DNA from: Trueperaceae bacterium | GTDB lineage: Bacteria > Deinococcota > Deinococci > Deinococcales > Trueperaceae | Direction: 5' to 3' | Length of the DNA: 34,091 nt | Assembly: GCA_019454765.1 (NCBI GenBank) | Contig: JACFNR010000010.1 | Coordinates: 1-34,091, forward strand | Shown: positions 10,444 to 29,226 of the stretch, piece by piece | How the letters are laid out: each line of letters opens with the position of its first letter | Numbering within the stretch: position 1 is the stretch's first letter | Notes under the pieces: model-generated | Told to the model about the DNA's origin: nothing | Seen by the model: only the letters and a program-made list of their open reading frames with translations | The model's database searches: none | Translations under genes and position numbers: made by a program

Positions 10444-10946
10444 TGGACGAGAACAAGCGCGAACACATGATAGCGACCGTCAGGGGGTACTTCGACGCCT
10501 GCAACTCCGCCAGTCGCGAGCTGTTCGCGCGCTACCTGGCCGACGACTGCCGCCACTACTTCCCGCCCAAGGCCGGCGGGCCCTACCTCGGACGTAAGGC
10601 GATCGAGGACCTGTGGATCGGCTTCGTCAGGCGCCTCGACTCGCGCTGGACCATCGACCGCCTCGTGTGCGACGGCGAGCAGATCTGTGTCGAGTGGACG
10701 CACTTCAAGCCGCGCGCCGGCGAGTACATCCGCGGCTCCGAGTGGTACGAGTTCGACGAACACGGCAAGATCGACGCCATCTGGGCGCACTACGCGTCCT
10801 CGCGCGACGAGGACGCCAAGGCGAACGTGCTCGAGGGCTACGACTACCCCGCCAACGGCTACCCCGTGACGCCGCCCGTCCTGACGCCCGAGACCCAGGC
10901 GAGGCGCGACGCGGCCCTCGCCGCGGAGGCCGCTCGTGGCGCCTGA
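10440..10946 (+). CDS. SnoaL-like / NTF2-like protein
   Basis: A 168-residue protein with the alpha+beta cone pattern of the SnoaL/NTF2-like family: the helix 'IATVRGYFDACNSASRELFARYLADDCRHYFPP', then 'RKAIEDLWIGFVRR', then beta strands with 'EWTHFKP' and 'GSEWYEFDEHGKIDAIWAHY'. Such folds act as small isomerases, hydratases or binding proteins, and the reaction cannot be assigned here. AAGGAGGG at 10426-10433 fits either ATG 10440 or ATG 10443. The gene is translationally coupled to the regulator before it and overlaps the RraA-like gene after it by 11 bp. It therefore probably belongs to the same uronate/aldarate-related pathway. Confidence 0.78.
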   Translation: MMDENKREHMIATVRGYFDACNSASRELFARYLADDCRHYFPPKAGGPYLGRKAIEDLWIGFVRRLDSRWTIDRLVCDGEQICVEWTHFKPRAGEYIRGSEWYEFDEHGKIDAIWAHYASSRDEDAKANVLEGYDYPANGYPVTPPVLTPETQARRDAALAAEAARGA

Positions 10947-11667
10947 CATCGCGCCTCTCGACCAGGCGACCGCAGACAAGTTGAGGCGGACGAGCACGGC
11001 CACCCTGGCCACGGTCCTCTACATCCACGGCTTCAAGTCGCGCGTCGTGCGGGGCGTGCACCGCCTCAACCCCGAGCGCGGGACGATGGTGGGGGTGGCC
11101 CGCACGCTCCGCTACGTGGCCGCCCGCGAGGACCTGGATTCGCTCGAGCTCTGGAAGCGCGACAGCAACCCGCAGCGCCGCATCGCCGACGAGATCCGCC
11201 CCGGCGAGGTCCTCGTCATCGAGGCCCGTGCGGACCAGTCGTGCGGCACGATGGGCGGGATGCTGGTGGCCAGGATGCAGGTGCGCGGCGCCGCCGGCAT
11301 CGTGTCGGACGCGCCGTTCCGCGACGGGCCGTTCATCGCCGGGCTCGAGATGCCCGGGTACTCGAGCGGCATGAACGCCAACACCAACCTCATCGCGCAC
11401 CACCCCGAGGAGCTCGACGTCACCGTCACGTGCGGCGGCGTGCACGTCAGGCCGGGCGACGTGGTGGTGGGCGACGCCGAAGGCGTGATCGTCATCCCGC
11501 GCCACCTCGCGGAGCAGGTCGCCGCCGAGGCACACGCGAAGGAGCGGGAGGAGGCCTTCATCGAGGGGCGCATCCTCGCCGGCGCCCCGGTGAAGGGCAC
11601 GTACCCGATGGACCAGACCACGCGTGCCGCCTACGAGGCGCAGCAGGGCGGGTCGCGGGAGGGCTAG
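10936..11667 (+). CDS. RraA-like / HMG-aldolase family protein
   Basis: A 243-residue member of the RraA-like family, which includes class II 4-hydroxy-4-methyl-2-oxoglutarate/oxaloacetate aldolases and related keto-acid lyases. The family core is visible: 'GVARTLRYV', 'GEVLVIEA', 'CGTMGGMLVARMQVRGAAGIVSDAPFRD' with the characteristic Arg-Asp pair, and 'VRPGDVVVGDAEGVIVIP'. The GTG start at 10936 has CGGAGG at 10924-10929 with a 6-nt spacer. It may cleave a keto-acid product of the divergent oxidative branch, but that is inference from context. True RraA (RNase E inhibitor) is shorter and is not indicated here. Confidence 0.85.
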   Translation: MAPDIAPLDQATADKLRRTSTATLATVLYIHGFKSRVVRGVHRLNPERGTMVGVARTLRYVAAREDLDSLELWKRDSNPQRRIADEIRPGEVLVIEARADQSCGTMGGMLVARMQVRGAAGIVSDAPFRDGPFIAGLEMPGYSSGMNANTNLIAHHPEELDVTVTCGGVHVRPGDVVVGDAEGVIVIPRHLAEQVAAEAHAKEREEAFIEGRILAGAPVKGTYPMDQTTRAAYEAQQGGSREG

Positions 11668-11700: not shown

Positions 11701-13125
11701 TCAGTCCTCCGGCGCGTCGGCCGCGTCGGGCCCGACCGGCGCGAAGCGGAACATGGCGTAGTGCGCCTCGAGCAGCGTGGTGTCGTCGGTCTCGCGGAGG
11801 CGGCGCCACATGCGGCGCGCCATCTCCCTCAGCGTGGCCGCGTGCTCGGGGTCGGCCGCCAGGTTGCGCAGCTCGTGCGGGTCGGCGGCCAGGTCGTAGA
11901 GCTCGTCCTCGTCGAAACCGTTGAAGACGTACTTCCAGTCGCCGTGCCACACCACCCGCTGGGTGTAGCCGAGCCGCTGTCCGTGGAACTCGGCGAACGC
12001 CTCGCCCGCGCCCGCGGGCGCCTCGCCGCGCAGCCGAGCGCTCAGGTCGCCACCCTGGCACGGGTACTCCTCGCCGAGGAGGAGGCGCACGAGGGTGCGC
12101 GGCAGGTCGAGCAGGCTCACCGCCTCCTCGACCACCAGGCCGGCCTCGACCCCGGGGCCTCTCACGACCAGCGGCACCCGGTAGGCCTCCTCGAAGGCGG
12201 CCACGCCCTTGAACATGAGCCCGTGGGCTCCCAGGTAGTCGCCGTGATCGGACGTGAAGACCACGAGCGTGTCCTCGGCCTGACCCGTCTCCTCCAGCAC
12301 GGCGAGCAGCCGGCCCACCTCGTCGTCGACCATGCTGCAGCGGGCGTAGTAGCAGGCGGTGGCGAGGGCCAGGTCCTCTTCGGATAGGTCCTCCCACGTG
12401 CGGCGGATGCGCCGGTAGACGGCCGGCCTGTCGGTCATGGGGTCGCGGAAGCTGGCCGGCGGCTCGAGCTGCGCCGGGTCGTACCGGTGGAAGACCTCGC
12501 GTGGCGCGACGAACGGGTCGTGCGGCGCCTCGGTGCTCACCACGAGCGCCCACGGCCTGTCCGGGTCCGCCGCCGCGCGCCGGACGAAGTCGATCCCCCG
12601 TTCGAACAGGGCGTGCTCCCGGGACGCGGAGGCGGGCTCGTCCGTGACCCCGGCCACGAGCAGGTCGCGGTACCCCTCGTCCTTCAGCACCAGCGAGGGT
12701 GAGAACACACCGGGGTGCTCCTGCACGCCCACCAGCTTCAGCTCGACCTCGTACTCCTGGAACCCGAACCGCTCCAGGGCGTCGCTCCGTTCCACGTGCC
12801 ACTTGCCGAAGTAGGCGGTGGCGTAGCCGGCGCGGTTAAGCTCCCGCGACCAGAACGGCATGTCATCCCGCAGCTGCGCCAGCGGGGGCTTGACGGCGTG
12901 CGTCACGTCGGTCACCCCGTGGGAGTGAGGTAGGTAGCCGGTGAAGAGGCTGGCGCGCGTGGGCGAGCAGATGGGGTTGGGCGAGTAGCAGCGCGTGAAG
13001 CGGGCGCCCTGCGCCGCGAGGCCCTGCAGGTGCGGCGTCAGGCACGGACCGCCCGGCACCACGGTGTCGGCGCGCTGCTGGTCCGTGATGAGGAGAAGCA
13101 GGTTGGGGCGCCGCCCCTCGCTCAC
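11701..13125 (-). CDS. Cys-type sulfatase, no signal peptide (sulfatase 1)
   Basis: A 474-residue S1-type sulfatase that hydrolyses sulfate esters. The signature C53-S-P-T-R57 (CxPxR) marks the cysteine converted to formylglycine. 'LLLLITDQQ' near residue 9, 'YFGKWHV' and 'VVFTSDHGDYLGAHG' supply metal and substrate residues. The C-terminal 'KYVFNGFDEDELYDLAADP' is typical of bacterial members. The protein starts MSEGRRPN directly at the fold, with no signal peptide, so it should be cytoplasmic. It would need the FGE encoded at 24630-25589. The GTG start overlaps the stop of the membrane-protein gene (GTGA), and it is the last gene of the transporter operon. The substrate is unknown, probably a sulfated sugar. 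Confidence 0.93.
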   Translation of the reverse strand: MSEGRRPNLLLLITDQQRADTVVPGGPCLTPHLQGLAAQGARFTRCYSPNPICSPTRASLFTGYLPHSHGVTDVTHAVKPPLAQLRDDMPFWSRELNRAGYATAYFGKWHVERSDALERFGFQEYEVELKLVGVQEHPGVFSPSLVLKDEGYRDLLVAGVTDEPASASREHALFERGIDFVRRAAADPDRPWALVVSTEAPHDPFVAPREVFHRYDPAQLEPPASFRDPMTDRPAVYRRIRRTWEDLSEEDLALATACYYARCSMVDDEVGRLLAVLEETGQAEDTLVVFTSDHGDYLGAHGLMFKGVAAFEEAYRVPLVVRGPGVEAGLVVEEAVSLLDLPRTLVRLLLGEEYPCQGGDLSARLRGEAPAGAGEAFAEFHGQRLGYTQRVVWHGDWKYVFNGFDEDELYDLAADPHELRNLAADPEHAATLREMARRMWRRLRETDDTTLLEAHYAMFRFAPVGPDAADAPED

Positions 13126-14465
13126 GGCCGCACCAGCGGCCGCGCCGCCAGACGCGCCAGGACCCGGCGGCTGCGGGCGGCCAACCAGGCGGCCTGCACC
13201 GCGAACGCCACGGAGAAAGCGACCATCCCCACGTACACGCCCGGCACGGTCCCGAGCGCGCCGCCGGCCAACAGGCCGAGAACGCCGACCGCCAGGAACA
13301 GGAGCACGGATTCCATTATCGCCCTCGTCTGCTCGCTGTACATGATGACCCCCTGGAACCAGCTCAGGAGCACGCGGACGCCGGGCAGGAGGGCGCCGCA
13401 CCACAGGGCCGCCGCGGCGTGTCGCGTGTGCTGGGGCTGGTGGCCGGTGCCGGCGCCTAACCAGAGCCGCGTGCGGGGCGTGGCGGCCACCACGACCACG
13501 CGGGCCGTGGTGGCCGCCGCCGCCACGTAGGTCATGCGCCTGAGCACCCCGACGGCACCGGGACGCCTCACGAGGCTGATCACGACCTCCGTGTACGCCA
13601 TCCCCGGGCTCTGCCACAGCATGAGGAAGCCCCAGACGACCGGCCAGACGGCGAGGGACTCGAGCGCGAGGGGCAGGCGCGCCAGCGCCACCGACACGAA
13701 CGTCTGCACCAGCATGGTGAGGACCGTCATGAGGACGAGCGGCCAGACGAAGCTCGCGAAGCGCCGGAAGGTCATGGCCGAACCCACCGGCTGCCGCCTG
13801 AGGGGGCCGGCCAGGATCGGCACCACGCGCAGCTGCGTGTAGGCGGCCTCGGCCAGGACGCCCGTTACGACGGCCGCGCCGGCGGCCACCACGCCGGGCA
13901 CCGCGCCCCATAGCGCCGCCGCCGCCAGCACGAGCGCCACGCACGTCAGGCGGATGACGGAGCCGAAGACGACCACCCGCGCGTCGCCGTAGCGGATCAG
14001 CACCCCCTGCTGGAAGCGCCTGAAGCCGGTGCCGAAGGCGTACGGCGCCATCAGCAGCAGTCCCAGCCGCGCCACGGCCGTCACACCATCGGGCGCGCCG
14101 ATGCCGCGCATGACCAAGCCGTAGGCGGGTGTCGCCGCCAGAACGAGCTGCAACGTGGTGAGCGTCAGCAGCAGCCTCAGCGCGTACGACCGCAACCGCG
14201 CGTAGGCGGGCGCGTCGGACGCCAGGGCCGTGGCGGACGGTAGGAGCGTCTGGGCGGGAGCCTGGATGATGACCGACAGGGCGAACACGATGCCCCAGGC
14301 GGCCAGGTTGATCTCGGGGTCGGCCATGCGCGTCAGTCCGGCCGCCGTGATCACGAGTTCGGACGTCATGATGACCCAGCTGAGGGCCAGGGGCAGCCAC
14401 GTGCCGATGACGGTGGCCGTCCGCAGGGGGTTCGACTCGTCGTACGGGTCCGAGGTCGTCGTCAA
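13122..14465 (-). CDS. Polytopic membrane protein, MATE/flippase-like
   Basis: A 447-residue integral membrane protein with about twelve hydrophobic segments and no signal peptide. The general pattern ('ALSVIIQAPAQTLLPSATALA', 'FGTGFRRFQQGVLIRYGDARVV', 'WPVVWGFLMLWQSPGMAYTEVVISL') recalls the MATE/MOP or ANK-like exporter superfamily, but I cannot name a specific family. The stretch around residues 330-360 ('ATPRTRLWLGAGTGHQPQHTRH') looks like a loop between helices; the frame stays open and hydrophobic afterwards, so I see no frameshift. The TTG at 14465 has a poor ribosome site and is uncertain. It lies between a cupin and a sulfatase gene. Export of a desulfation product or of sulfate is conceivable. 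Confidence 0.7.
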   Translation of the reverse strand: MTTTSDPYDESNPLRTATVIGTWLPLALSWVIMTSELVITAAGLTRMADPEINLAAWGIVFALSVIIQAPAQTLLPSATALASDAPAYARLRSYALRLLLTLTTLQLVLAATPAYGLVMRGIGAPDGVTAVARLGLLLMAPYAFGTGFRRFQQGVLIRYGDARVVVFGSVIRLTCVALVLAAAALWGAVPGVVAAGAAVVTGVLAEAAYTQLRVVPILAGPLRRQPVGSAMTFRRFASFVWPLVLMTVLTMLVQTFVSVALARLPLALESLAVWPVVWGFLMLWQSPGMAYTEVVISLVRRPGAVGVLRRMTYVAAAATTARVVVVAATPRTRLWLGAGTGHQPQHTRHAAAALWCGALLPGVRVLLSWFQGVIMYSEQTRAIMESVLLFLAVGVLGLLAGGALGTVPGVYVGMVAFSVAFAVQAAWLAARSRRVLARLAARPLVRP

Positions 14466-14490
14466 CTACCGGTCAGGCCTGGGCGGCCGC

Positions 14491-14919
14491 TCAGCCTCCG
14501 ACCACGTCGGCCATGTCCCAGCCGTTCTCCGCGCACACGACCCTGACGTGGGACTCCCAGGTCGGTTCGGCGCTCGGCCTGCCGCCGGGGAAGCAGTCGA
14601 CGACGAGGTACCTGAGCGGCTCGCTGGAGACGCAGTGGACACGGTGGAGCGTGGCGGGCGGGATCCTCACCAGGTCGCCGGGCACCAGGTGCCCGGCGAA
14701 CGCGGCGTCCGGGCCCACCTCGAGCCGGCCCTCGCCCGCCAGGACGTAGAACACCTGTTCCGTGTCGTCGTGCTTGTGGAGGGGCGGCGCCTCGCCAGGC
14801 TCCATGACGCTGATGAAGCTCTCGCTCGTCGTCGCCTCGGCGCGGTCCATGACGAGCAGGTTCGTGTGGGTCGGGAAGCGGTAGCGCTTCGGGTCGGTGG
14901 TCTTGAAGACGTAGTTCAT
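14491..14919 (-). CDS. Small single-domain cupin protein
   Basis: A 142-residue cupin_2-type beta barrel. Motif 1 is 'PPLHKHDDTEQVFYVLAGEG', with HxH and the downstream Glu for a metal ion. Motif 2 is 'GDLVRIPPATLHRVH'. Such proteins are sugar isomerases, dioxygenases or binding proteins; the specific job is not readable. The ATG at 14919 overlaps the stop of sulfatase 2 (ATGA), which fixes this start; an upstream in-frame ATG at 14994 would add 25 poorly conserved residues. Its place between two sulfatases suggests that it acts on the same sulfated or desulfated sugar, for instance as an epimerase or isomerase. Confidence 0.85.
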   Translation of the reverse strand: MNYVFKTTDPKRYRFPTHTNLLVMDRAEATTSESFISVMEPGEAPPLHKHDDTEQVFYVLAGEGRLEVGPDAAFAGHLVPGDLVRIPPATLHRVHCVSSEPLRYLVVDCFPGGRPSAEPTWESHVRVVCAENGWDMADVVGG

Positions 14920-16463
14920 GCCTGTGCGTCCGTCCTTCCGGCTCCTCGGTCCGGTCGCGCCTGTCCGGTCGCGCCGTCCGTGGCTGAGGTCCATGCCGTC
15001 AGTATCGCCCCGAGCTCGCCGACCTCGTGGGCGTGACCCATCCGACCGGCGAGGTTCGTGAGTTCTCCCGGATCGGCGCGGAGGTCGTAGAGCTCGTCGA
15101 GGTCACCCAGCTCGTCGTGCACGTACTTCCAGTCGCGGGTCCGGACCATCTTGCGGAAGCCCTCCGCCTCGCGCAGCTTCAGGCTGGCCCGCACCGCGTC
15201 GAGCCCGTGAGTGGTGCCCACGCGCTCCCCGAGGTCGTCGAGGTCGGCCAGCGTGAACGGCGGCCCACCCGCTCCGTACTCGGAGAAGACGACCTCCCGC
15301 GGCGCCGCGTCCGTGAGGGTGGGGAGCGGCCTCCCCTGCACCCCTGGCGGGGCCGCCAGGCCCTGGAGGGCGAGGAGGGTGGGGACCACGTCGACCAGGT
15401 TGGCCATGCCGTCGTCCACCACGCCGGCCGGGGCGTGGCCCGGCCAGGACACGATGAGGGGGACGCGCGTCAGGCAGTCGTAGAACGCTCCGCCCTTGCG
15501 GGCCATGCCGTGTTCGAGCGCGAAGTCGCCGTGGTCGGCGAGGAAGACGACGATGGTGTCTCCATCCAGGCCGGCGCCTTCGATGGCCGCCAGGATGCGA
15601 CCGACACCGTCGTCGACGAACCGGATCATGGCGCGGTAGGTGGTGAGGAGCCGCCGGCGCTCCCGTTCCGGCGCGCTCGCGACGTCGAGCAGCCTCCGCA
15701 GCACCCGCGTCCGTTCCGGCGCGCCCGGCATGTCGGGCGGCTCGGTCTCCGGGAGCACGATCCCGTCGCGAGCGGCCGCCTCGAAGTAGGACCGCGGGGC
15801 CTCGTAGGGCGTGTGCGGGTCGGGGTACGAGACCCAGAGCGCGAACGGCCCGTCCGTGGCCGCTCGCGACTCGAGGTAGCGGACGGCCTGGCCCGTCACG
15901 AGCCCGGTCGAGTAGTCGTCCAGCGGGTGGTCCGTCACGGCGTAGGAGACGGCCGGTGCCTGGTGGGGCATGGCTCGCCGCGTCGCGTGAGCCGCCTCCA
16001 CCGCGGCCGTCGGCCGGTACCACTCCATCCCGCGGGGCGGGCGATCCGGTGGGAGCCCCTCATGACCGATCTCGCACAGAACGTCGAAGAGGGCCAGGTC
16101 GGTGGGCTCCTCGAAGCAGTGGTTCTTGCCGATGAGGGCGGTCGCGTAGCCGGCCTCGCGCCACAGCCTGAAGGCGTGGGCGACGCCCTCCGGCATGGGC
16201 GTCTCGTTGAGGCGCGAGCCGTGCGAGCTCGGGTAGCGACCGCTCCAGAGCGACACGCGCGCCGGCACGCAGAGCGGGCTGGGCGTGAAGGCGTTGCGGT
16301 AGGTGACGCCGCGCTCCGCCAACCGCTCAAGGGCCGGAGTGGCGGTGCCCCCGGCGCCGTAGACGCTGCTGGCCGTCGCCTTCAGCTGATCGGCCATGAT
16401 CACGACCACGTTGGGTGGCGCCCGGCCCGCTCGGCGGGGCGCGGGCGGCGCGGGCGGCGTCAC
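14916..16463 (-). CDS. Cys-type sulfatase, no signal peptide (sulfatase 2)
   Basis: A 515-residue S1-type sulfatase, clearly different from sulfatase 1. C65-V-P-A-R69 is the CxPxR formylglycine site. 'NVVVIMADQ', 'ALIGKNHCF', '[13 protein letters not shown]' and '[20 protein letters not shown]' are the expected active-site segments. '[19 protein letters not shown]' is the usual C-terminal motif. The N-terminus is a short Pro/Ala-rich stretch without a hydrophobic core, so the enzyme should be cytoplasmic. The GTG start at 16463 overlaps the stop of the ABC ATPase gene (GTGA). This couples a sulfatase directly to an importer, which supports desulfation after uptake. Confidence 0.92.
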
Positions 16464-17581
16464 CGGGGCGGCAGGTCGGCGGGGGCGGGGTGAACCGCGG
16501 GGCGCGCCGGCGCGGCGCCGGCGGGCTCGTGCCCCCTGGCGATGCCCGGCAGGTCGAGCTCCTCGGCGCGGTGACAGGCCACGAAGTGCCCGGGGCGCAC
16601 CTCGCGCAGTTCCGGCGTCTCCGTGCGGCAGCGCTCGGTCGCGAACGGGCAGCGCGGGTGGAAGTAACAACCGCTGGGCGGGTTGGCGGGGTTGGCGACC
16701 TCGCCCTCCAAACGGATCATCTCGGCGCGCCGGCGCGGGTCGGCCTGCGGGACCGCGCCCATGAGCGCCGACGTGTACGGGTGGAGCGGCGCCACGAAGA
16801 GCGGCTCGGTGGGAGCGGTCTCCACGATCTTCCCCACGTACATGACCGCCACGCGGTGGCTGATGTGCTTGACGATGCTCAGGTCGTGCGCCACGAACAG
16901 GTAGGAGAGGCCGAGGCGCTCCTGGAGCTCGAGCAGCAGGTTGAGGATCTGCGCCTGCACCGAGACGTCCAGCGCCGACACGGCCTCGTCGGCCACCACG
17001 AGCTTCGGGTTGAGGGCCAGCGCCCGTGCTATCACGACCCGTTGCCGCTGCCCGCCGCTGAAGGCGTGCGGGTAGCGGTGCATGTACTCGGGCCTGAGAC
17101 CCACGAGGCCGAGCAGCTCGGCCACCCGGTCCATGCGCTCCTGGCGGCTCCTCACCCCGTTGACGAGGAGCGGCTCCCCGATGATGTCGAAGAGGTTCTT
17201 GCGGGGGTTGAGCGACCCGAACGGGTCCTGGAAGATCATCTGCATGTCGCGCCAGAGGGGGCGCAGCTCGCGAGTCCTCAGGTGCGCGACGTCGATGACG
17301 TCGTCGTCGAGTCGGAAGAGGATCTCGCCGGCCGTGGGGTCCATGGCGCGCAGCACACAGCGCGAGGTGGTCGTCTTGCCGCAACCGCTCTCCCCCACCA
17401 GGCTGAGGATCTCGCCCGTGTCGACGTGCAGGCTGACGTCGTCCACCGCCTTGACGGCGCCCACCTTCCGCCCGAAGAAGCCGCCTTTGATCGGGAAGTG
17501 CTTCTTGAGGTGCCGCACCTCGAGCAGCCGCTCCGGCGGCAGCTCGCCGGCCACCGCGCGGCGCTCGGCAGCGTCACTCAT
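16460..17581 (-). CDS. Opp/Dpp-type ABC transporter ATPase (OppF-like)
   Basis: A 373-residue ATPase of the oligopeptide/dipeptide importer family, the second of the pair that drives the transporter. Walker A GESGCGKT is at residues 63-70, the signature is FSGGQRQR, and Walker B reads '[12 protein letters not shown]' (DEA instead of the more common DEP). The OppF-type '[11 protein letters not shown]' Q-loop region and the C-terminal oligopeptide-transporter domain with '[15 protein letters not shown]' Cys residues are present. Family members carry peptides or, in Thermotoga and relatives, oligosaccharides. It starts at ATG 17581, overlapping the OppD-like gene by 8 bp, and is coupled to sulfatase 2 downstream. 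Confidence 0.94.
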
Positions 17582-18752
17582 CGGCGGCCCCCAGCGTGGC
17601 GACGCCGCGACCCCGGCGAGCGCGCCCGGCGCGGGCAGCGCCGGCCTCCTCGTCGGCGTACTCGCGGTGGTAGAGGAAACAGGCGACGGGCTGCTCCGAG
17701 TCGGCAGGGTGGAGCGCCGGCACGTGCACGTCGCAGACGCCCGGTATGGCGTCCGGGCAGCGCGGGTGGAACGGGCAGCCCGTGGGCTTGTGGAGCGGGT
17801 GGGGGATCGAACCCTCGATGGTGGGCAACTCGGTGCGAGCGGTGCTGTCCATGCTGGGCACGGAGCGGAGCAGCGCCTTCGTGTACGGGTGCTTGGGGGC
17901 GTGGAAGATGGCGTCGACCGGGCCGCGCTCCATGACCCTGCCCAAGTACATGACGACGACCCGGTCGGCGACCTGCGCGATGACGCCCAGGTCGTGGGTG
18001 ATGAAGATGATGGCGGAGCCGTGCTCCTCCTGCAGGTCCCTGAGGAGCGAGAGCACCTGCGCCTGGGTGGTGACGTCGATGGCGGTGGTGGGCTCGTCGG
18101 CTACGAGCAGCTTGGGGCGGCACGAGAGCGCCATGGCGATGATGGCGCGCTGCCTGAGCCCGCCCGAGAGCTGCCAGGAGTAGGCGTCGACGCGCTCCTC
18201 GGGGCTCGGGACCCCGACCTCGCGCAGCCGCTCGATGGCCATGGCGCGCGCCTCGCGCTTCGACACCCGCTGGTGTAGCCGTATGGCCTCGATGATCTGC
18301 TCGCCGATGGTGTGGAGCGGGCTGAACGAGGCCATCGGTTCCTGGGGGATGAGGGCGATCTCGCCGCCGCGGATGTTGCGCATCCTGCGGCCGTCGGCAC
18401 GCAGGGTGGTGAGGTCGATCTCGTCGACGGCGCCCGAGCGGCCCGCGGGGTCGGGGTGGTAGAGGATCTCGCCGCCCACGATGCGGCCCGGCTTGGCGAC
18501 GAGCCTCAGGATGGACTTCATGGTGATGCTCTTGCCGCAGCCGCTCTCGCCGACGATGCCGAGCACCTCGCCGGACATGACGTCGAAGCTGACGCCGTCG
18601 ACGGCGCGGACCGTGCCCTCGTCGAGCTCGAAGTAGGTCCTGAGCTCGCGCACTGAGAGCAGGGGTCGCTGGCCCCCCTCGCGCGGGCCGGCCGTGGCCG
18701 GCGCCGGAGCCGGGTGGGCCCGGTCGTCAGTGGCTGTAGGGGTCTGCGGCAT
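17574..18752 (-). CDS. Opp/Dpp-type ABC transporter ATPase (OppD-like)
   Basis: A 392-residue ATPase partner of the OppF-like protein. Walker A GESGCGKS is at residues 68-75, the signature is LSGGLRQR, and Walker B is '[13 protein letters not shown]'. '[22 protein letters not shown]' is the family Q-loop region. The C-terminal domain carries '[16 protein letters not shown]', the Cys cluster seen in OppD/DppD proteins. The N-terminal 30 residues are a Pro/Ala-rich extension, so a later start is possible. It overlaps the permease gene upstream by 26 bp and the second ATPase gene downstream by 8 bp. Confidence 0.94.
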
Positions 18753-19857
18753 CGCGTAAACCGTCTCCTAAGATGTTGAGCGCCAGCACGGTGATGATGA
18801 CGAACAACCCCGGGAAGAGTAGCCAGGGAGCGTTGACGACGGACTGCAGGTTCTGCGCCTCCTGCAGCATCACGCCCCAGCTTATGGCCGGTGGGCGCAT
18901 GCCGAGGCCGAGGAAGCTGAGGAAGGTCTCGTTCAGGATCATGAGGGGCACGGCCAGGGTGACGGCGGCGATGATGTGGCTCGCGAAGGAGGGCACCATG
19001 TGCGAGAAGATGATGCGGCTCTGGCTGGCGCCCATCAGGCGGGCGGCCGTGACGAAGTCCTCCTCGCGCAGGCTCAGGAAACGCCCGCGCACCTCGCGCG
19101 CCAGGCGGGTCCAGCCGAGCAACGCCAGGATGACGGTGATCGCGAAGTAGACCCACGTCACGGGCCACGTGCGGGGCAGGGCGGCCGACAGGGCGAGCCA
19201 GACGGGGATGGCGGGGATGGCCTGCAGGAGGTCGATGACGCGTTGGATGACGTTGTCGACGGCGCCCCCGAAGTAGCCCGACACGCCGCCAAGGATGATG
19301 CCCAAGATGGTGCTTATCGCCACGGCCACGAGGCCTATCGAGAGCGAGATGCGCGTGCCGTACATGAGGCGCGACCATTGGTCGCGGCCCAGGCGGTCGG
19401 TGCCGAGGACGTGGGCGGCCTCGGCGCGCTCGGCCGTCCCGAACCCGACGAGGTGCCGGTCGGCCGGGATGATGCCGAACAGCTTGTAGGCGTAGCCGCG
19501 CGCGAACAGCCTGACGGGGATGCGGGTCGACGTGTCGGCCGCCCACTCCATCTTGAGGGTCCGGGCGTTGCGCTGCCCCTCGACCTGGTAGACGAACGGC
19601 CACGTCAGGCGCCCCTCGTGGAACACGCGCACCGTCTGTGGCGGGATGTAGGCGCGCCGGGCGCTGGTGGCGTTCGGGTCGGCGGTGCTGAAGAACTCGG
19701 GCGTCAGCGCCATCAGGGCGACGAGCGCCACAACCCACAGGCAGACCACCCCGAGCTTGTGACGCGTGAAGCGCAACCAGGTGAGCTTCCAGGCGGGCGT
19801 GACGTAGACAGACGGCTCCTTGCCGGCGCGCTTGGCTGAGGCCACCGAGTCGGTCAT
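18727..19857 (-). CDS. Opp/Dpp-type ABC permease (OppC-like) with large extracytoplasmic insertion
   Basis: A 376-residue permease, longer than the usual ~300 residues. An N-terminal cytoplasmic segment leads to TM1 near residues 35-52. A ~95-residue extracytoplasmic region follows ('STADPNATSARRAYIPPQTV' to 'AAHVLGTDRLGRDQWSRL'), then five more helices. The EAA-type loop 'EEDFVTAARLMGASQSRIIFSHMVP' contacts the ATPases. 'GLGMRPPAISWGVML' and the C-terminal '[12 protein letters not shown]' are OppC hallmarks. The ATG at 19857 overlaps the oppB-like stop (ATGA). The long insertion is shared with some sugar-type Opp systems and might shape contact with the large binding protein. Confidence 0.93.
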   Translation of the reverse strand: MTDSVASAKRAGKEPSVYVTPAWKLTWLRFTRHKLGVVCLWVVALVALMALTPEFFSTADPNATSARRAYIPPQTVRVFHEGRLTWPFVYQVEGQRNARTLKMEWAADTSTRIPVRLFARGYAYKLFGIIPADRHLVGFGTAERAEAAHVLGTDRLGRDQWSRLMYGTRISLSIGLVAVAISTILGIILGGVSGYFGGAVDNVIQRVIDLLQAIPAIPVWLALSAALPRTWPVTWVYFAITVILALLGWTRLAREVRGRFLSLREEDFVTAARLMGASQSRIIFSHMVPSFASHIIAAVTLAVPLMILNETFLSFLGLGMRPPAISWGVMLQEAQNLQSVVNAPWLLFPGLFVIITVLALNILGDGLRDAADPYSH

Positions 19858-20843
19858 GCGCTCTCCAGCTTGATGCGCGGGTCGAGGACGGCCAGGAGGA
19901 TGTCGGAGACGAGCGCCCCCAGCACGGCCAGGAGGCAGAAGATCAAGATGATGGTGCCGGCGAGGTACATGTCCTGCCCGATGAGGGCGCGCAGGAGCAG
20001 CGGACCGATGGTCGGAAGGCTCATCACCACCGACACGACGAGGCCGCCCGACAGGAGCTGTGGGAAGTACCAGCCGAGCGTGCTCACCACCGGCGCGATG
20101 GCGACCCGCGTGGGGTACTTGAGCACGAGGCGCCACTCGGGGAGGCCCTTGGCGCGCGCCATCTCCGTGTACGGCTTGCTGAGCTCGTCGAGGAGGTTGG
20201 CGCGCACGACGCGCGCGATCTGCGCGGTGCCCGCCACGCCCAGGACGATCATGGGCAGCCACACGTGGGTGAGCAGGTCGCCCACCCTGGCCCACGACCA
20301 CGGGGCGTCGATGAAGCCGGGCGAGAAGAGCCCCGTGACCGTGACCCCGAACTTGTCGAACGCCACCCACATGAGCACCAGCGCGAGCATGAAGTTGGGA
20401 GTGGCCAGGCCGATGTAGTTGAGGACGGTGAAGACGTAATCGAGGAGAGAGTACTGGCGCGTGGCCGAGAAGATCCCTATCGGGATGGCCACCGCCCAGG
20501 TGAACAAGAGAGAGAAGGTGGTCAGGACGAGCGTGAGGATGAGCCGCTCGCCGATGAGTTCGCTGTTGGGGCGACGCCACTCGAGGGAGACGCCGAGGTC
20601 GCCCCTCAGCAGGTTGCCCACCCAGCGGCCGTACTGCACGTACAGGGGCTGGTCGAGGCCGTAACGCGTCCTGAGGGCGTCGATCTCCGCCTGGTCGATG
20701 GAGGTGCCGCCCGCCGCGAGCTCGGCCACGTAGCTCGTGAGGAAGTCGCCCGGCGGCGCCTGGATGAGGGCGAAGGAGATGATCGAGAAGATGAGCAGCA
20801 GGAACGGCAGCAGCAGTAGGCGCTTGATTATGAACCAGTGCAA
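19854..20843 (-). CDS. Opp/Dpp-type ABC permease (OppB-like)
   Basis: A 329-residue permease forming the import channel with the OppC-like protein. It starts 'HWFIIKRLLLLPFLLLIFSI', a typical OppB first helix, and has 'RTRYGLDQPLYVQYGRWV', the EAA-type loop 'KPYTEMARAKGLPEWRLVLKY', and the C-terminal 'AVLDPRI'. A TTG start at 20843 is chosen because AGGAGA lies 7 nt upstream and the next residues fit the family start. The octamer AGGCTAGG (minus strand, 20861-20854) overlaps this ribosome site. A strong hairpin separates the gene from the binding-protein gene. Confidence 0.93.
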   Translation of the reverse strand: MHWFIIKRLLLLPFLLLIFSIISFALIQAPPGDFLTSYVAELAAGGTSIDQAEIDALRTRYGLDQPLYVQYGRWVGNLLRGDLGVSLEWRRPNSELIGERLILTLVLTTFSLLFTWAVAIPIGIFSATRQYSLLDYVFTVLNYIGLATPNFMLALVLMWVAFDKFGVTVTGLFSPGFIDAPWSWARVGDLLTHVWLPMIVLGVAGTAQIARVVRANLLDELSKPYTEMARAKGLPEWRLVLKYPTRVAIAPVVSTLGWYFPQLLSGGLVVSVVMSLPTIGPLLLRALIGQDMYLAGTIILIFCLLAVLGALVSDILLAVLDPRIKLESA

Positions 20844-20853
20844 GTCTGGGTCT

Positions 20854-20861
20854 CCTAGCCT
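20854..20861 (-). repeat. AGGCTAGG leader octamer (copy 2)
   Basis: AGGCTAGG on the coding strand of the oppB-like gene, 10 nt before its TTG start; it runs directly into the AGGAGA ribosome site. Confidence 0.35.
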
Positions 20862-20892
20862 GTCGTCGCTCGCCGCCCTGGGGCTGGGTCTT

Positions 20893-20926
20893 CCCTTCGG
20901 CCCGCCCGTTGGGGCGGGCCGAAGGG
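20893..20926 (-). terminator. Strong intercistronic hairpin between binding-protein and permease genes
   Basis: A perfect 15-bp inverted repeat, CCCTTCGGCCCGCCC, with a 4-nt loop (positions 20893-20907 and 20912-20926). There is no T-run after it on the minus strand. Such hairpins after binding-protein genes act as partial terminators or as 3' mRNA stabilisers that keep the binding protein more abundant than the permeases. Confidence 0.7.
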
Positions 20927-20951
20927 CCCGTCGCGGGTCAGTTGCCCGCGG

Positions 20952-22892
20952 TCACTGCGCCTTGTAGAAGAACTGCTCGGGGCGCGCGTCGCCCGGGGTG
21001 CGGAGCGGCCAGTCGTTGGCCACGACGGGCGGCACGTTCATGAGCCTGTCGTTCACGACCACGACGCCCTGGACCATCGGCGTGAGGCCGACGGTGCCGA
21101 AGCCGTAGAGCTCGTCGACGGCGTGGCGGAAGAGTTCCTTCGCCAGCTCGATCTGCTGCTCGACCCCGACGGTCTTGGCCTCCTCGATGATGTCGACGAT
21201 GCGGGCGATGCCGGGCGCCGGCTCCTTGCCCTGCGCGCCGTCGGTGGCGTACCAGCGCCGCGACTCGACCGCGAAGATGGTGGCGGGGTCGGAGCGGGGG
21301 TCGATCTTGGGGTTGCCCGTGAAGGGGAACGCGGTGGTGTCCTCGTTCCAGATCTCGACCTGGAGCTCGTTGGCGTCGCGCATCGTGAAGTGGGCGTTGC
21401 GCTCGCGGACCTGGACGTCGGTCGGCACACCCACGGCGGCCCAATCGGCCGCGACGAGCTGCGCCACGTCGGGCCACGGGCCGAAGGCCGGCACGACCGA
21501 GAGCTCGAGACGCAGCGGCTTGCCGCTGGGCAGCAGCCGGTTGCCGTTCGCGTCCTTCTTGAGCCCGATGCCGTCGAGGAGCTCGTTGGCGAGGGCCGGG
21601 TCGTACTCCGTGTACTTCTGCGCGTACTCGTCGCCCGGGTAGTAGGGGTGCCACGGCGCGGGCACGTTCTGGCGGATCTCGCCGAGGCCCAGGAACGCCG
21701 CCTCGCGGATCTCGTCGCGGTCTACGGCGTGGGAGAGCGCCACGCGGAAGTCGTGGTTGGCGAGGATGCTGCCGAGCTCGGGGTCGATCTCGTACTCCTG
21801 GTTGAACCAGACGGCGGCGTCGGAGCCGCCGAAGCTCGGCCAGGTGATGACGTGGTAGTTGGCGCGGTCGGCGTTCTCCATCAGGACCGGGTAGTTGGTC
21901 ATCTGGATGTGGCGCGCCTGGAAGTCGAGCTCGCCGGCGACGGCCGCGAAGTTGAGGGCCTCCACGTCGGCGAAGAAGCGGAACTGCACCTCGTCGATGT
22001 AGGGGAGCTGGTTGCCGGCCGAGTCGACGCCGATGTAGTAAGGGTTGCGGCGCAGCGTGAACACCTGGTCGGAGACGGTCGAGTTGAAGGGGACCCAGGC
22101 GGCCATGGTGGGGCGCTGCGGGTTCTCGGTTGGCATGGCCCTCGTCATGAACAGGTCGACCCAGTTCGACAGGCCGGCCGCCTTGACCTTCTCGTCGAGC
22201 TCGGCGGCTGGGACGAAGTCGGGGTGGAACTGCTCGAGGTAGTGGCCGGGCAGGAAGGCCGCCAGCGTGCGGTCGCCGCCGTCGCGGAACGTCAGTTCCG
22301 TGAGGAAGAGGGTGTTCGGGAAGTCGAACGTGATGCGCACGGTGTCGTCGTCGAGGGCCTCGAGCTTGGCCGGCGTCCCGTCGCGGTTGGCGAACCAGCT
22401 CGGGACGCTCGGCGTGAGGTCCTTGTTGAGGATGACGCGCACGTACCAGAACGTCATGGCGCTGGCGTTGAAGGGCGCGCCGTCGGACCACTTGGCGCCC
22501 TTGCGCAGGTTCAGCGTCCAGCTATGGAAGTCGTCGGAGGCCTCCCACGACTCGACGAGGTGCGGCACGATCTCGGAGCCGTCGGAGCTGAAGCGCACGA
22601 GGCTGTCGTAGACGACGCGCACGTAGTTGTTCATGTCGGCCGGGCCGGTGAAGGCGCGACGCAGGACGCCGCCGTACGTGCCGATCTCGTCGACGGTCTT
22701 GACGACGAGCGGGTTCGTCGGGAGCCTGTCCGCCACGGGCGGGAGCTGCCCCTTGGCGACCAGGTCGGCCAGCATGGGCGCCTCGTGGTACTCCTGGGCG
22801 AACGCCATGCCCCCGAACGCGGCCACCAGGAGGAGTAGCGCGAGGCGCCTCCAGCCCGGGAACCTGCTGCGAGGCGTGAAGCTGTTGGTCAT
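20952..22892 (-). CDS. ABC transporter solute-binding protein, family 5 (Opp/Dpp type)
   Basis: A 646-residue secreted binding protein that delivers the solute to the OppBC-like channel. The signal peptide has RR near residue 15, a hydrophobic core at 17-31 and a likely cleavage after A32 (AFA-Q). Family landmarks are 'YDSLVRFSSDGSEIVPHLVESWEASDD', 'WSDGAPFNA' and 'FRVALSHAVDRDEI'. It is about 100 residues longer than classic OppA. Thermotoga homologues of this family bind oligosaccharides rather than peptides, and the coupling to sulfatases and uronate genes suggests a sulfated sugar here. The ATG at 22892 has GAAAGGAG upstream. It is the first gene of the nine-gene operon. Confidence 0.93.
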   Translation of the reverse strand: MTNSFTPRSRFPGWRRLALLLLVAAFGGMAFAQEYHEAPMLADLVAKGQLPPVADRLPTNPLVVKTVDEIGTYGGVLRRAFTGPADMNNYVRVVYDSLVRFSSDGSEIVPHLVESWEASDDFHSWTLNLRKGAKWSDGAPFNASAMTFWYVRVILNKDLTPSVPSWFANRDGTPAKLEALDDDTVRITFDFPNTLFLTELTFRDGGDRTLAAFLPGHYLEQFHPDFVPAAELDEKVKAAGLSNWVDLFMTRAMPTENPQRPTMAAWVPFNSTVSDQVFTLRRNPYYIGVDSAGNQLPYIDEVQFRFFADVEALNFAAVAGELDFQARHIQMTNYPVLMENADRANYHVITWPSFGGSDAAVWFNQEYEIDPELGSILANHDFRVALSHAVDRDEIREAAFLGLGEIRQNVPAPWHPYYPGDEYAQKYTEYDPALANELLDGIGLKKDANGNRLLPSGKPLRLELSVVPAFGPWPDVAQLVAADWAAVGVPTDVQVRERNAHFTMRDANELQVEIWNEDTTAFPFTGNPKIDPRSDPATIFAVESRRWYATDGAQGKEPAPGIARIVDIIEEAKTVGVEQQIELAKELFRHAVDELYGFGTVGLTPMVQGVVVVNDRLMNVPPVVANDWPLRTPGDARPEQFFYKAQ

Positions 22893-22913
22893 GTGGACTC
22901 CTTTCGGTTGCTG

Positions 22914-22921
22914 CCTAGCCT
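22914..22921 (-). repeat. AGGCTAGG leader octamer (copy 3)
   Basis: AGGCTAGG on the coding strand of the binding-protein gene, 21 nt before its ATG and just ahead of the GAAAGGAG ribosome site. Confidence 0.35.
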
Positions 22922-22952
22922 GCCACGCGGTGCGCGAACCCCACCCTCACGA

Positions 22953-22969
22953 GGGGCGCGATGCGCCCC
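22953..22969 (-). other. Hairpin in the leader of the transporter operon
   Basis: GGGGCGC and GCGCCCC pair perfectly around a 3-nt loop. It lies in the ~157-nt untranslated leader predicted from the promoter at 23084-23056. Apart from this hairpin, the promoter, the operator and the AGGCTAGG copy, the 291-nt gap from 22893 to 23183 shows nothing else I can support. Confidence 0.4.
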
Positions 22970-23020
22970 GAGGATCGCCCTGGTTGCCGGCGTCTCGCCC
23001 ACTGGAACCTCGTCGCCGGT

Positions 23021-23038
23021 TTGCGTTAGCGATAACGC
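23021..23038. promoter_or_regulatory. LacI-type operator of the transporter/sulfatase operon
   Basis: TTGCGTTAGCGATAACGC contains the arms GCGTTA (23023-23028) and TAACGC (23033-23038) around GCGA. The core GTTAGCGATAAC matches the LacI/PurR-family pattern with a central CG. It lies about 11-28 nt downstream of the predicted start point, so a bound repressor would block elongation or promoter escape. A 15-of-16-base copy is present at 26350-26365. Confidence 0.75.
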
Positions 23039-23055
23039 GGATTGCTAGTGCTGGG

Positions 23056-23084
23056 AGGTTAGCACGCACCCCCGGGGCGGTCAA
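23056..23084 (-). promoter_or_regulatory. Promoter of the transporter/sulfatase operon
   Basis: On the minus strand TTGACC (23084-23079), a 17-bp spacer and TAACCT (23061-23056) form a good sigma-70-type promoter. The predicted start near 23049 lies just before the LacI-type operator and gives a ~157-nt leader. Confidence 0.68.
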
Positions 23085-23183
23085 GACTGGCAGGACTCAC
23101 GTCCTGGTGGGTCAAAGACTGCTCCACCGCGCGTCGGCGGGACCCATGACCACGTGGCCGAGGGTCGCCCCGGAGGGCCGCCC

Positions 23184-24509
23184 TCACGCGGCCGTGGTGC
23201 GGGCGCTCGACCCACCCTGCAGCAGCTCGACGAGGAGCATCAGGTTCCGGTTCAGGTGGTATGGGTCCTTCACCGGAAGGCCCACGACGCGGTCGAGGGG
23301 CGCGCCCAGCCTGTCACGGATCTGCACCCACTCTCCCACGCCCTCGTCGGGGTGCGGGAAGGTGGCGAACACGTAATCGAACGTCCGGTCGTGGACGGCG
23401 CGGAGCCGCGCGTCGCCCGTGAGGACGTGGCCCAGCAGCGCGCCGTAGAGGGTCTCCGAGTGGGGCCACCAGATCTTCGTGTCCCAGGTGGCGAGGATCA
23501 GCTCCTCGAACGCTCCCTCGGCGCGGCCGGTCGGGGGCCGCCCGTCGCCACCCACGTACCTGAAGATCCCGCCGTGCTGAGGGTCCCAACCGGCCTCGAA
23601 GGAGGCGAGCAACACGCGCGCCGCCTCCTCGACCGCCGCGTCGCGGCCGTGACGCGCGGCCTCCTCCATGACGAACCACATGGACTCGATGGCGTGGCCC
23701 GGCGTTACGTGACTGGTCAACAACCGACCGCTCGAGGCCGCGCCGGAAGCCGCCGCCGGGCAGATGACCTCCTGCACCAGCCCGTCGGGACGCACGAACT
23801 TGGTGAGCACGGCGTCCATGTGCGCGAGCGCGCTCGCGGCCAGCGCGTCCGAGCGCGGGTCGCCGCGCTGTCGCATGGCAAGTTCGAGCTCCTGCGCGAC
23901 GTTCAGGAGGATCATCGGCTCCGCGTGAGCGCGACAGCCGGCCGGGAGGGGGTACGGCTCGCTCCGGGCGGTTCCCGCCGCGAGCCGCTCGCCCACACGC
24001 TCGTAGGTGGCAACGGCCTCGTCGAGGTAGTCCCACTGGCCCGTGGCGCGCGCCGTCTCGCTCAGGGCCAGCGCCACGAAGCAGTCCGCGAAGTAGCTGA
24101 GGTCGTGCCCCTTGCCCGGCATGAACTCGAGCTTCCGACCGTCCGCCGCGAGCAGGTAGGCGACCGCGCCGTCGGCGAGGAAGGCGTTGGCGCGCAGGAA
24201 CTCGACCGTCTCCACGGCGCGCGCGGTCAGGTCGTCCGCGTCGCCCGTCAGCAGCCCGGCGCGCACGAGCCGTGCCGCGTGCGCCATCAACCACGCGAAG
24301 CGCCCCTGCGACCAGACGAACTTGTCGTCGCTGACGCGCGCTCCCGTGTAGTTGTCGATGCAGGTGAACACCCCGCCGTGCACGCGGTCACTGGGGGCGC
24401 CCAACCAGAAGGGCAACACGTCCCGTTCCAGGTGGCGACGGTAGAAGGCCCCGAGCTCACCCAGGTCGAGGCTGGCGGCCGGCGGCAGGTCGGTGATCGA
24501 CTGGTTCAT
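23184..24509 (-). CDS. AGE-family (N-acylglucosamine 2-epimerase-like) sugar epimerase/isomerase
   Basis: A 441-residue (alpha/alpha)6-barrel enzyme of the AGE superfamily, which interconverts sugars at C2 (N-acetylglucosamine/N-acetylmannosamine, mannose/fructose, cellobiose and others). Supporting segments are 'HGGVFTCIDNYTG', 'KFVWSQGRFAWLMAH' (the WxQGR pattern), 'SHVTPGHAIESMWFVMEEA' with a catalytic-type His, and 'KIWWPHSETLYGAL' with a second. The C-terminus reads 'VKDPYHLNRNLMLLVELL'. The ATG at 24509 has GAGGAG 7 nt upstream, which rules out an in-frame ATG at 24551. Which sugar it acts on is not readable. The neighbours suggest a product of sulfated oligosaccharide breakdown. Confidence 0.88.
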   Translation of the reverse strand: MNQSITDLPPAASLDLGELGAFYRRHLERDVLPFWLGAPSDRVHGGVFTCIDNYTGARVSDDKFVWSQGRFAWLMAHAARLVRAGLLTGDADDLTARAVETVEFLRANAFLADGAVAYLLAADGRKLEFMPGKGHDLSYFADCFVALALSETARATGQWDYLDEAVATYERVGERLAAGTARSEPYPLPAGCRAHAEPMILLNVAQELELAMRQRGDPRSDALAASALAHMDAVLTKFVRPDGLVQEVICPAAASGAASSGRLLTSHVTPGHAIESMWFVMEEAARHGRDAAVEEAARVLLASFEAGWDPQHGGIFRYVGGDGRPPTGRAEGAFEELILATWDTKIWWPHSETLYGALLGHVLTGDARLRAVHDRTFDYVFATFPHPDEGVGEWVQIRDRLGAPLDRVVGLPVKDPYHLNRNLMLLVELLQGGSSARTTAA

Positions 24510-24601
24510 CGAGCGGCTCCTCGTGGTCGCGCGGCTGACCTCTGCGGCCATGCGGCGTCCACCGCGAGCCTAACCGGTCGGTGGGTCGGGACGTCCGTGC
24601 C

Positions 24602-24630
24602 GGGCCCGGCCGCCTGCACGCGCCGGGCCC
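24602..24630 (-). terminator. GC-rich hairpin after the FGE gene
   Basis: GGGCCCGGC (24602-24610) and GCCGGGCCC (24622-24630) form a perfect 9-bp stem with an 11-nt loop, starting at the last base of the FGE stop codon. There is no T-run, so its role as a terminator is uncertain; it may be an attenuator or mRNA end between FGE and the AGE-family gene. The rest of the 120-nt gap shows no clear promoter. Confidence 0.4.
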
Positions 24631-25589
24631 TATCCCTCCTGCGGGGCTTCCGACCTGGCGACCCGGAACCCCATGTGGCCGGTGGCGCTGTCCGGCGTGT
24701 TGAAGGTGCGGGCCGCCACCCGGTAGCGGTTGCAGTAGGAGGCGTGGCAGAGGTAGGAGCCGCCCTTCACGACGCGGCCCGGCCCGTGGCGGGGTCCCTG
24801 CGGGTCCGTGAGCGCGCGCCCGTCCGGCCCGGCGCCGAACCAGTCGGCGCACCACTCCCACACGTTGCCCGCCACGTCGTACAGGCCGTAGCCGTTGGGC
24901 GGATAGGCGCCAACGGGCGACGTGCCCACCCAGCCGTCCTCTCCCGTGTTCCGCCCGGGGAACTCGCCCTGCCAGATGTTGCAGCGGTGCTCGCCGCCTG
25001 GTCGCAGCGCGTCGCCCCACGGGTAACGGCGCCCTTCGAGCCCGCCCCTGGCCGCGCGTTCCCACTCGGCCTCGGTGGGAAGCCGCACCCCCGCCCAGGC
25101 GCAGTAGGCGGAGGCGTCGTGCCAGGAGACGTGCACGACGGGGTGATCGAGACGGTCGTCCACGGCGCTGCCTGGCCCCTCCGGCCGACGCCAGGTGGCG
25201 CCATGAACCTGGCGCCACCAGGGGGCCGCCGGGACGGCCCTGAAGCCCCCGGGGTCGGCGAGGAAGGCCTGGAAGACGAACGACCAGCCGTAACGCTCCG
25301 CCTCCGTCACGTAACCGGTGGCGTCCGCGAACTCCGCGAAGTCGGCGTTCGTCACCGGGAAGCTGTCGATGGCGAACGCCTTCAGGCGCACCTCCCGCAC
25401 GGGCCCCTCGCCGTCGGCCGGGAACCCCTCACCCTCCGCGCCCATCCGGAACGAGCCGGCCGGAACATGAACGAGGCGGTGCTCGTGGCGGCCCAGCCTC
25501 CTCACCCCAGCCAACGACGCGGGCGCGACGGCCGGCGCCGGGGCGCGTGCGGGCGCCGGGCTGCAGCAACCGAGGTTTGCCCTAGCCAC
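24630..25589 (-). CDS. Formylglycine-generating enzyme (sulfatase-modifying factor)
   Basis: A 319-residue FGE of the SUMF1 family. It oxidises the cysteine of the CxPxR motif in sulfatases to formylglycine, using oxygen and copper, and so activates the two sulfatases of this locus. The decisive feature is 'GGSYLCHASYCNRYRVAAR', with the paired active-site cysteines C281 and C286 spaced exactly as in human and actinobacterial FGE, followed by 'NTPDSATGHMGFRVA'. 'VPAGSFRMGAEGEGFPADGEGP', 'VTNADFAEF', 'RLPTEAEWERAARGG' and 'GNVWEWCADWF' are further family blocks. No signal peptide is seen, so it should be cytoplasmic, like the sulfatases. The GTG at 25589 has GAGGAGG 6 nt upstream. The N-terminus reads ARANLGCCSPAPAR, an odd Cys-Cys tail. 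Confidence 0.93.
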   Translation of the reverse strand: MARANLGCCSPAPARAPAPAVAPASLAGVRRLGRHEHRLVHVPAGSFRMGAEGEGFPADGEGPVREVRLKAFAIDSFPVTNADFAEFADATGYVTEAERYGWSFVFQAFLADPGGFRAVPAAPWWRQVHGATWRRPEGPGSAVDDRLDHPVVHVSWHDASAYCAWAGVRLPTEAEWERAARGGLEGRRYPWGDALRPGGEHRCNIWQGEFPGRNTGEDGWVGTSPVGAYPPNGYGLYDVAGNVWEWCADWFGAGPDGRALTDPQGPRHGPGRVVKGGSYLCHASYCNRYRVAARTFNTPDSATGHMGFRVARSEAPQEG

Positions 25590-26367: not shown

Positions 26368-26426
26368 AACGTGTCGAACAGGGGGTCGCAGCGACGACTC
26401 ACACCCACTCGCCCGAACCGCTTCAA

Positions 26427-26455
26427 CGGGTACGGAGCGTCCCGGACGCTACCCG
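26427..26455 (+). other. Hairpin in the leader of the catabolic operon
   Basis: AGCGTCC (26436-26442) and GGACGCT (26444-26450) are fully complementary, and the outer arms CGGGT (26427-26431) and ACCCG (26451-26455) extend the stem across a 4-nt bulge. The element lies about 40 nt before the NagB-like ATG. The function is unknown. Confidence 0.4.
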
Positions 26456-26496
26456 CGCGTTCCCCGGCGGTCCACGGCGAGCGAAAGGACGTCCGC

Positions 26497-29154: not shown

Positions 29155-29226
29155 CGTGCCGCGGCCGACGGCGTGGCCACGCGGCTCGAACACGTGAGGG
29201 CGCCGCCCTCACCCGAGGAGTTGAGG

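Follow-up and report, generated by a model that had tools for sequence, protein, structure and literature searches.

A Trueperaceae gene set predicted to import a sulfated saccharide through an Opp-type transporter and to desulfate it in the cytoplasm

A great deal of carbon is stored in sulfated glycans, and the degraders described so far mostly remove the sulfate outside the cytoplasm. What role might be played by two sulfatases that lack signal peptides and are encoded in one operon with a complete ABC importer? Here, we address this question for a stretch of 34,091 nucleotides from a Trueperaceae bacterium (the window), comprising bases 1–34091 of the 70-kb contig C10 (GenBank JACFNR010000010.1, assembly GCA_019454765.1); the genome, G000, is 2.9 Mb in size and 97% complete. 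The genes of the window probably serve to scavenge and catabolise a sulfated uronate/N-acetylhexosamine saccharide resembling a glycosaminoglycan (GAG), which would be imported by an Opp-type transporter and desulfated in the cytoplasm. A preliminary description of the window had proposed Opp uptake followed by cytoplasmic formation of formylglycine and desulfation, and this is still the best reading of the gene set.

The genes lie on the minus strand in the order FGE (formylglycine-generating enzyme), AGE (N-acylglucosamine 2-epimerase), SBP (family 5 solute-binding protein), OppB, OppC, OppD, OppF, Sulf2, cupin, MATE-like and Sulf1 (table 1). The Opp-type (PepT) importer set is complete, with an SBP_bac_5 protein, two BPD_transp_1 permeases (OppC_N) and two oligo_HPY ATPases. 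From OppB to Sulf1 all junctions overlap by 4–26 nt, the exception being a 25-nt gap between the cupin and MATE-like genes; overlaps of 4 nt (GTGA or ATGA) join OppF to Sulf2, Sulf2 to the cupin gene and the MATE-like gene to Sulf1, while 108 nt separate SBP from OppB. Checked against these genes, the coordinates, motifs and cysteine numbers of the preliminary description are correct, and its central observation, signal-less Cys-type sulfatases in one overlapping run with a complete Opp importer and a true FGE upstream, is confirmed. Its account of the operon was accurate in position and overlooked the cupin and MATE-like genes between the sulfatases. A LysE-type exporter gene (25646–26275, minus strand) lies directly upstream of FGE; in relatives, none was seen at the loci inspected.

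The location of the sulfatases was assessed from hydropathy (the maximum 12-residue mean) and from a start-codon argument. The maximum mean is 0.75 for Sulf1, 1.23 for Sulf2 and 1.40 for FGE, compared with 2.55 for SBP and 2.97 for OppB; by this measure no signal peptide is present in Sulf1, Sulf2 or FGE, and SBP has a hydrophobic leader. The start of FGE (GTG at 25589) is uncertain, and none of the in-frame starts yields a hydrophobic leader. For Sulf2, the best 80 of 504 candidate stretches in a scan of the collection supplied 81 ortholog copies, 48–72% identical, from Trueperaceae, Chloroflexota, Latescibacterota, Poribacteria, Gemmatimonadota, Spirochaetes, Lentisphaerae and others. Of the 81 copies, 76 have their nearest start codon only 3–7 residues ahead of the first core strand, and in 59 an in-frame stop caps any N-terminal extension at fewer than 20 residues; most Sulf2 orthologs therefore cannot carry a signal peptide. 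Judged from these gene starts, missing export is a family property of Sulf2, and the earlier claim that neither the sulfatases nor FGE carry a signal peptide is borne out. The Sulf2 group spans Deinococcota, Chloroflexota, Latescibacterota, Poribacteria and Gemmatimonadota, a spread which suggests that many uncultured lineages may desulfate privately, inside the cell.

Sulf1 and Sulf2 are the sole CxPxR sulfatases of the genome. It has three PF00884 matches in total; the third (C74) is phosphodiesterase-like, lacks CxPxR and was rejected as a sulfatase. Both enzymes have the features of S1 formylglycine sulfatases, with the motifs CSPTR at residue 53 and CVPAR at residue 65, and with the Cys, Arg, Lys, His, Asp/His and Lys residues conserved in orthologs. 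In Sulf1 the catalytic set D15/Q16/C53/R57/K108/H110/H202/D293/H294/K306 is invariant across eight orthologs.

Is the association of sulfatases and importer more than chance? In a survey of 111 genomes of the order (cut-offs E < 1e-120 for SBP and E < 1e-150 for Sulf1), SBP was found in 11 genomes, Sulf1 in 10 and Sulf2 in 12, and each SBP genome and each Sulf1 genome is also a Sulf2 genome. The hypergeometric probability is 2.5e-14 over the order, or 7e-9 when the approximately 39 genomes of the same family are taken as the universe, in both cases with no correction for relatedness. The block was found again in 11 other Trueperaceae genomes, and gene order is kept in the other loci of the family that were compared, some of which are short contigs. 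This recurrence in relatives, together with co-occurrence, is more than chance. The idea that Sulf2 is always linked to Opp was rejected, as most orthologs in other phyla have no adjacent Opp genes. In a Gemmatimonadota metagenome-assembled genome (L064:6021–13583), SBP_bac_5, OppB, OppC, a Sulf2 ortholog and an OppDF fusion form one run, whose Opp proteins are 25–41% identical to those of the window. That Opp operon is followed by genes for a BNR-repeat protein and a porin, with a double FGE-domain protein nearby. DUF3604-related proteins are encoded near Sulf2 orthologs in two phyla (L028:7901–9400, L050:15659–17869).

FGE matches solved bacterial FGEs over the full domain at 1e-108 to 4e-118 and carries C281 and C286 within a CHASYC motif; relative to actinobacterial FGE (5nxl/6s07; 2q17), which it matches with both catalytic cysteines, no functional difference was seen. 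The genome encodes two PF03781 proteins, and the cysteine pair is present only in the FGE of the window; the second (L005, G000:C27), which lies beside nitrite-reductase-like and SCO-like genes, was rejected as an FGE for want of the pair. As this nearly complete genome encodes a single true FGE and only these two CxPxR sulfatases, the two are by elimination its clients. In this sense the dedicated FGE of the preliminary description stands for this genome; among relatives, the system does not always include an FGE. An FGE ortholog occurs in seven of the 12 Sulf2 genomes, six of which (G000, G091, G093, G094, G102 and G103) have no anaerobic sulfatase-maturating enzyme (anSME), while G107 has both. 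Four others (G077, G080, G086 and G089) hold both sulfatases and have, in place of an FGE ortholog, an anSME (TIGR03942, over cut-off); in G076, which is 85% complete, neither was found. FGE was accordingly rejected as an obligatory component, and the Cys-type sulfatases of these genomes appear, from gene content, to be matured by either FGE or anSME, both of which act in the cytoplasm. The swap around the same sulfatases offers a natural experiment on the choice of maturation enzyme by oxygen regime. The missing signal peptide of FGE, pointed out earlier, is ordinary in bacteria, as in the FGEs of M. tuberculosis and Streptomyces. In sister species, a protein of 775–790 amino acids with a signal-like N-terminus is encoded between FGE and AGE (L021:8417–10744, L023:11125–13497); it is absent from the window, and the L021 copy has no Pfam match.

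The likely cargo is indicated by the neighbouring genes. The neighbourhood encodes a saturated-uronate pathway (UxaC, UxaE, a UxuB-like short-chain dehydrogenase/reductase (SDR), UxuA and a KDG-kinase-like PfkB protein), and the locus also has hexosamine genes, namely a full-length AGE and a NagB-like gene. AGE adjoins SBP in most of the genomes. Four other genera carry NagA within the operon, where it follows OppF and precedes the NagB-like gene that stands just ahead of Sulf2. Because genes for sulfate, uronate and hexosamine occur together, a GAG-like cargo is indicated, and a sulfated uronate/hexosamine fragment is likely on this predicted gene content. The preliminary description had anticipated a sulfated sugar; both the flanking uronate genes and the SPH1118-like SBP speak for its uronate part, and the hexosamine half (AGE, NagB-like, and NagA in relatives) had been missed. 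Two groups with Sulf2 orthologs in the collection scan, sponge Chloroflexi and Latescibacteria, figure in published discussions of the breakdown of GAG-like or sulfated algal glycans (PMC6306507, PMC4454575).

The binding protein offers a direct handle on cargo identity. Its closest solved structure is 5ipw (1e-110), to which no function is assigned, and its closest ligand-characterised relative is the pectin binder SPH1118 (3e-82, full length). SPH1118 from Sphingomonas binds pectin and trigalacturonide, and peptides scarcely, and in its crystal two sulfonate buffer molecules are held via Arg57 (PMC9314435). The SPH1118 contacts N53, R57, E216, R294, R466 and W594 are identical in SBP (W594 from pairwise alignment), and R496 is replaced by Lys; these contacts are invariant in five Trueperaceae SBPs, except E256, which corresponds to E216 of SPH1118. 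The reducing-end uronate subsite alone stands out, with five of six residues identical (p ~0.02, for a subsite chosen post hoc), a hint of an SPH1118-like uronate subsite in the aligned sequence. The pocket as proof of a uronate ligand was rejected, as identity over all contacts is at background.

The sequence itself shows the gene content and overlaps, the catalytic residues, the missing leaders and the joint inheritance of the set; from these we infer the cargo, its transport and the order of the steps, desulfation included. The periplasmic SBP would capture an acidic sulfated fragment, which OppBCDF would import unmodified. FGE would convert Cys53 of Sulf1 and Cys65 of Sulf2 to formylglycine in the cytoplasm, where Sulf2 and Sulf1 would strip sulfate from the imported sugar. 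Uronate catabolism would proceed by UxaC/UxaE, the UxuB-like SDR, UxuA and KDG kinase; AGE, NagA and the NagB-like enzyme would process the hexosamine, and the MATE-like protein would export a by-product.

Several findings weigh against this scheme. Besides the exchange of FGE for anSME and the many Sulf2 orthologs without Opp neighbours, the ligand of SBP is a prediction from homology and gene context, and the 6/16 SPH1118 contact residues that are identical do not exceed the 34% background. In the window's genus the locus lacks NagA, whose ortholog (66% identical) is elsewhere in the genome. No GH88, GH20, GH2 or Hepar_II_III protein was found in the genome, a search that did not extend to PL8, GH3, GH4, GH39, GH79 or GH154; an oligosaccharide as cargo, as originally put forward, is thus unproven. 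Unless the cell lives on small scavenged products, the enzyme that cleaves the cargo would belong to a family other than GH88, Hepar_II_III, GH20 and GH2. Finally, the nearest solved relatives of Sulf2 include arylsulfatases and phosphonate monoester hydrolases (PMHs), and its ester specificity is a prediction.

The lack of these four GAG-depolymerase families and the position of NagA favour a different cargo handled by the same import-then-desulfate logic, either a fragment of another sulfated uronate glycan (ulvan, glucuronofucan or microbial exopolysaccharide) or a sulfated monosaccharide; for such a cargo the uronate genes alone would suffice. We regard this as a minority possibility, given the placement of AGE beside SBP, the insertion of NagA and a NagB-like gene between OppF and Sulf2 in four genera, and the lack, among the annotated locus genes, of any for rhamnose or fucose catabolism.

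It seems quite unlikely that one or both sulfatases are instead hydrolases from the same superfamily that act on phosphonate or phosphate mono- or diesters. PMHs also carry formylglycine, and some of them (4upk, 2w8s, 2vqr) are among the nearest models and sequences, as are SpAS1/SpAS2 of Silicibacter pomeroyi (4upi, 4upl), which on model comparison are nearest to Sulf2 in both solved sequence (24–26% identity) and fold; we know of no importer associated with SpAS1/SpAS2. The NCBIfam sulfatase equivalogs (choline sulfatase, PRK13759) are all under cut-off for both enzymes, and assignment as choline sulfatase (BetC) was rejected, with TIGR03417 scores of 237.7 and 202.2 bits against a cut-off of 433.45. 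However, the best matches include choline and carbohydrate sulfatases, Sulf1 has choline sulfatase and PsS1_NC as nearest solved structures and passes the SGSH_C cut-off, and no phosphonate genes are found among the annotated locus genes. Opp systems are mostly peptide-related and SPH1118 binds unsulfated oligogalacturonide (PMC9314435), but that this importer carries peptides or unsulfated oligouronides, leaving the sulfatases to act on something entering separately, is very unlikely, since SBP orthologs never occur without Sulf2 in the survey, the OppF and Sulf2 genes overlap, a second Opp–Sulf2 operon exists in Gemmatimonadota, and SPH1118 has little affinity for peptides.

Under the preferred reading of Opp import followed by cytoplasmic desulfation, a place must also be found for the MATE-like protein, whose gene is conserved between the two sulfatases and syntenic in relatives. 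None of seven orthologs has a Pfam match, even at E 10. Modelled with AlphaFold2 (pTM 0.83), it adopts the MOP fold seen in MATE and MurJ proteins, with Foldseek TM scores of approximately 0.6–0.7 against most MATE/MurJ entries among the top matches. Residues ~316–342 (window 13400–13520, minus strand) diverge sharply from six orthologs and then regain register, as if by two compensating frameshifts, real or introduced in assembly. That the protein exports sulfate or another by-product is a guess. We consider unlikely the most elaborate version of the scheme, in which a conserved Opp module interchangeable between FGE and anSME serves a sulfated hexosamine–uronate, the disaccharide is split in a novel manner without the usual GAG hydrolases or lyases, and a MOP-fold exporter removes a by-product such as sulfate.

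Table 1. Positions of the operon genes and their neighbours in the window, with the matches on which each name is based.
Feature	Coordinates	Strand	Basis and remarks
UxuA mannonate dehydratase	4800..5921	+	TIGR00695 346 bits, over cut-off
PfkB sugar kinase, KDG-kinase-like	6298..7560	+	PF00294; NF041332 231 bits, under cut-off
GntR, SnoaL-like and RraA-like genes	9637..11667	+	travel with the operon in relatives
Sulf1 (sulfatase 1)	11701..13125	-	S1-type; PF00884 3e-46, SGSH_C; CSPTR at C53; last operon gene
MATE-like (MOP-fold) membrane protein	13122..14465	-	fold comparison; without Pfam match; between both sulfatases
Small cupin	14491..14919	-	Cupin_2 3.8e-16; ATGA overlap with Sulf2 stop; syntenic in relatives
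Sulf2 (sulfatase 2)	14916..16463	-	S1-type; PF00884 5e-45; CVPAR at C65
OppF-type ATPase	16460..17581	-	ABC_tran 8e-29, oligo_HPY 2e-20
OppD-type ATPase	17574..18752	-	ABC_tran, oligo_HPY 7e-21
OppC-type permease	18727..19857	-	BPD_transp_1 3e-30, OppC_N 3e-10
OppB-type permease	19854..20843	-	BPD_transp_1 8e-28
SBP, family 5 (cluster C), SPH1118-like	20952..22892	-	SBP_bac_5 2e-53; signal peptide
AGE	23184..24551	-	PF07221 4e-25; solved AGEs 9e-41, full length
FGE	24630..25589	-	PF03781 4.5e-86; C281/C286
NagB-like (glucosamine-6-P deaminase/isomerase family)	26371..27279	+	PF01182 1e-26; solved NagB 7e-26
SDR, D-mannonate oxidoreductase (UxuB-like)	27276..28094	+	NF006132 364 bits, cut-off 281
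LacI-type regulator	28141..29154	+	PF00356, PF00532
UxaE tagaturonate epimerase	29173..30741	+	PF16257 3e-117
UxaC glucuronate isomerase	30738..32159	+	NF002794 481 bits, over cut-off

How does this locus compare with known systems? Import followed by cytoplasmic desulfation is not a new concept, having been proposed for Streptobacillus (PMC5430744) and Bifidobacterium (PMC7326374). In Streptobacillus moniliformis, sulfated GAG disaccharides are proposed to be imported and then desulfated by a sulfatase predicted to be cytoplasmic, and sulfatase activity outside the cell was looked for without success (PMC5430744). Its locus (importer Smon0120–0123, sulfatase Smon0126, UGL Smon0127) resembles the window in having an ABC importer with an adjacent predicted cytoplasmic sulfatase, the location in the window likewise being predicted from sequence alone, and in combining uronate and amino-sugar catabolism. 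The two differ in that the S. moniliformis importer is annotated as of the aldouronate/multiple-sugar type and that of the window is Opp, and in that S. moniliformis uses unsaturated disaccharides released by PL8/PL12 lyases and split by GH88, whereas the window encodes a saturated-uronate pathway; neither GH88 nor Hepar_II_III was found in its genome, PL8 not having been searched. The glycosulfatase clusters of Bifidobacterium breve UCC2003 also rely on intracellular sulfatases, here for GlcNAc-6-sulfate, and scavenge sulfated sugars that other organisms release (Egan 2016, cited in PMC7326374); they are actinobacterial and serve a sulfated monosaccharide, and the available portion of that source mentions no Opp importer or uronate genes. 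Use of an Opp system for a sulfated sugar was presented earlier as little described; an Opp-type carrier for an acidic sugar has a precedent in SPH1118 of Sphingomonas sp. A1 (7VEQ–7VEW; PMC7055323, PMC9314435), which like the SBP of the window is a cluster C protein encoded beside Opp-like genes. Its subsite 2 and 3 residues (R438, D483, V484, N324, S298 and F592) are not conserved in SBP, and, unlike the window, it has no sulfatase link mentioned in the available portion of those reports. The library searched had no paper about sulfatases of Trueperaceae, and none that pairs the words 'cytoplasmic sulfatase' and ABC transporters. The principle is thus known, and what looks new is the pairing of this importer with a conserved set of genes: relative to these systems, the differences are in the saturated-uronate route without detected GH88 or heparinase, the Opp importer, the cupin and MATE-like partners, and the exchange of FGE for anSME around the same sulfatases.

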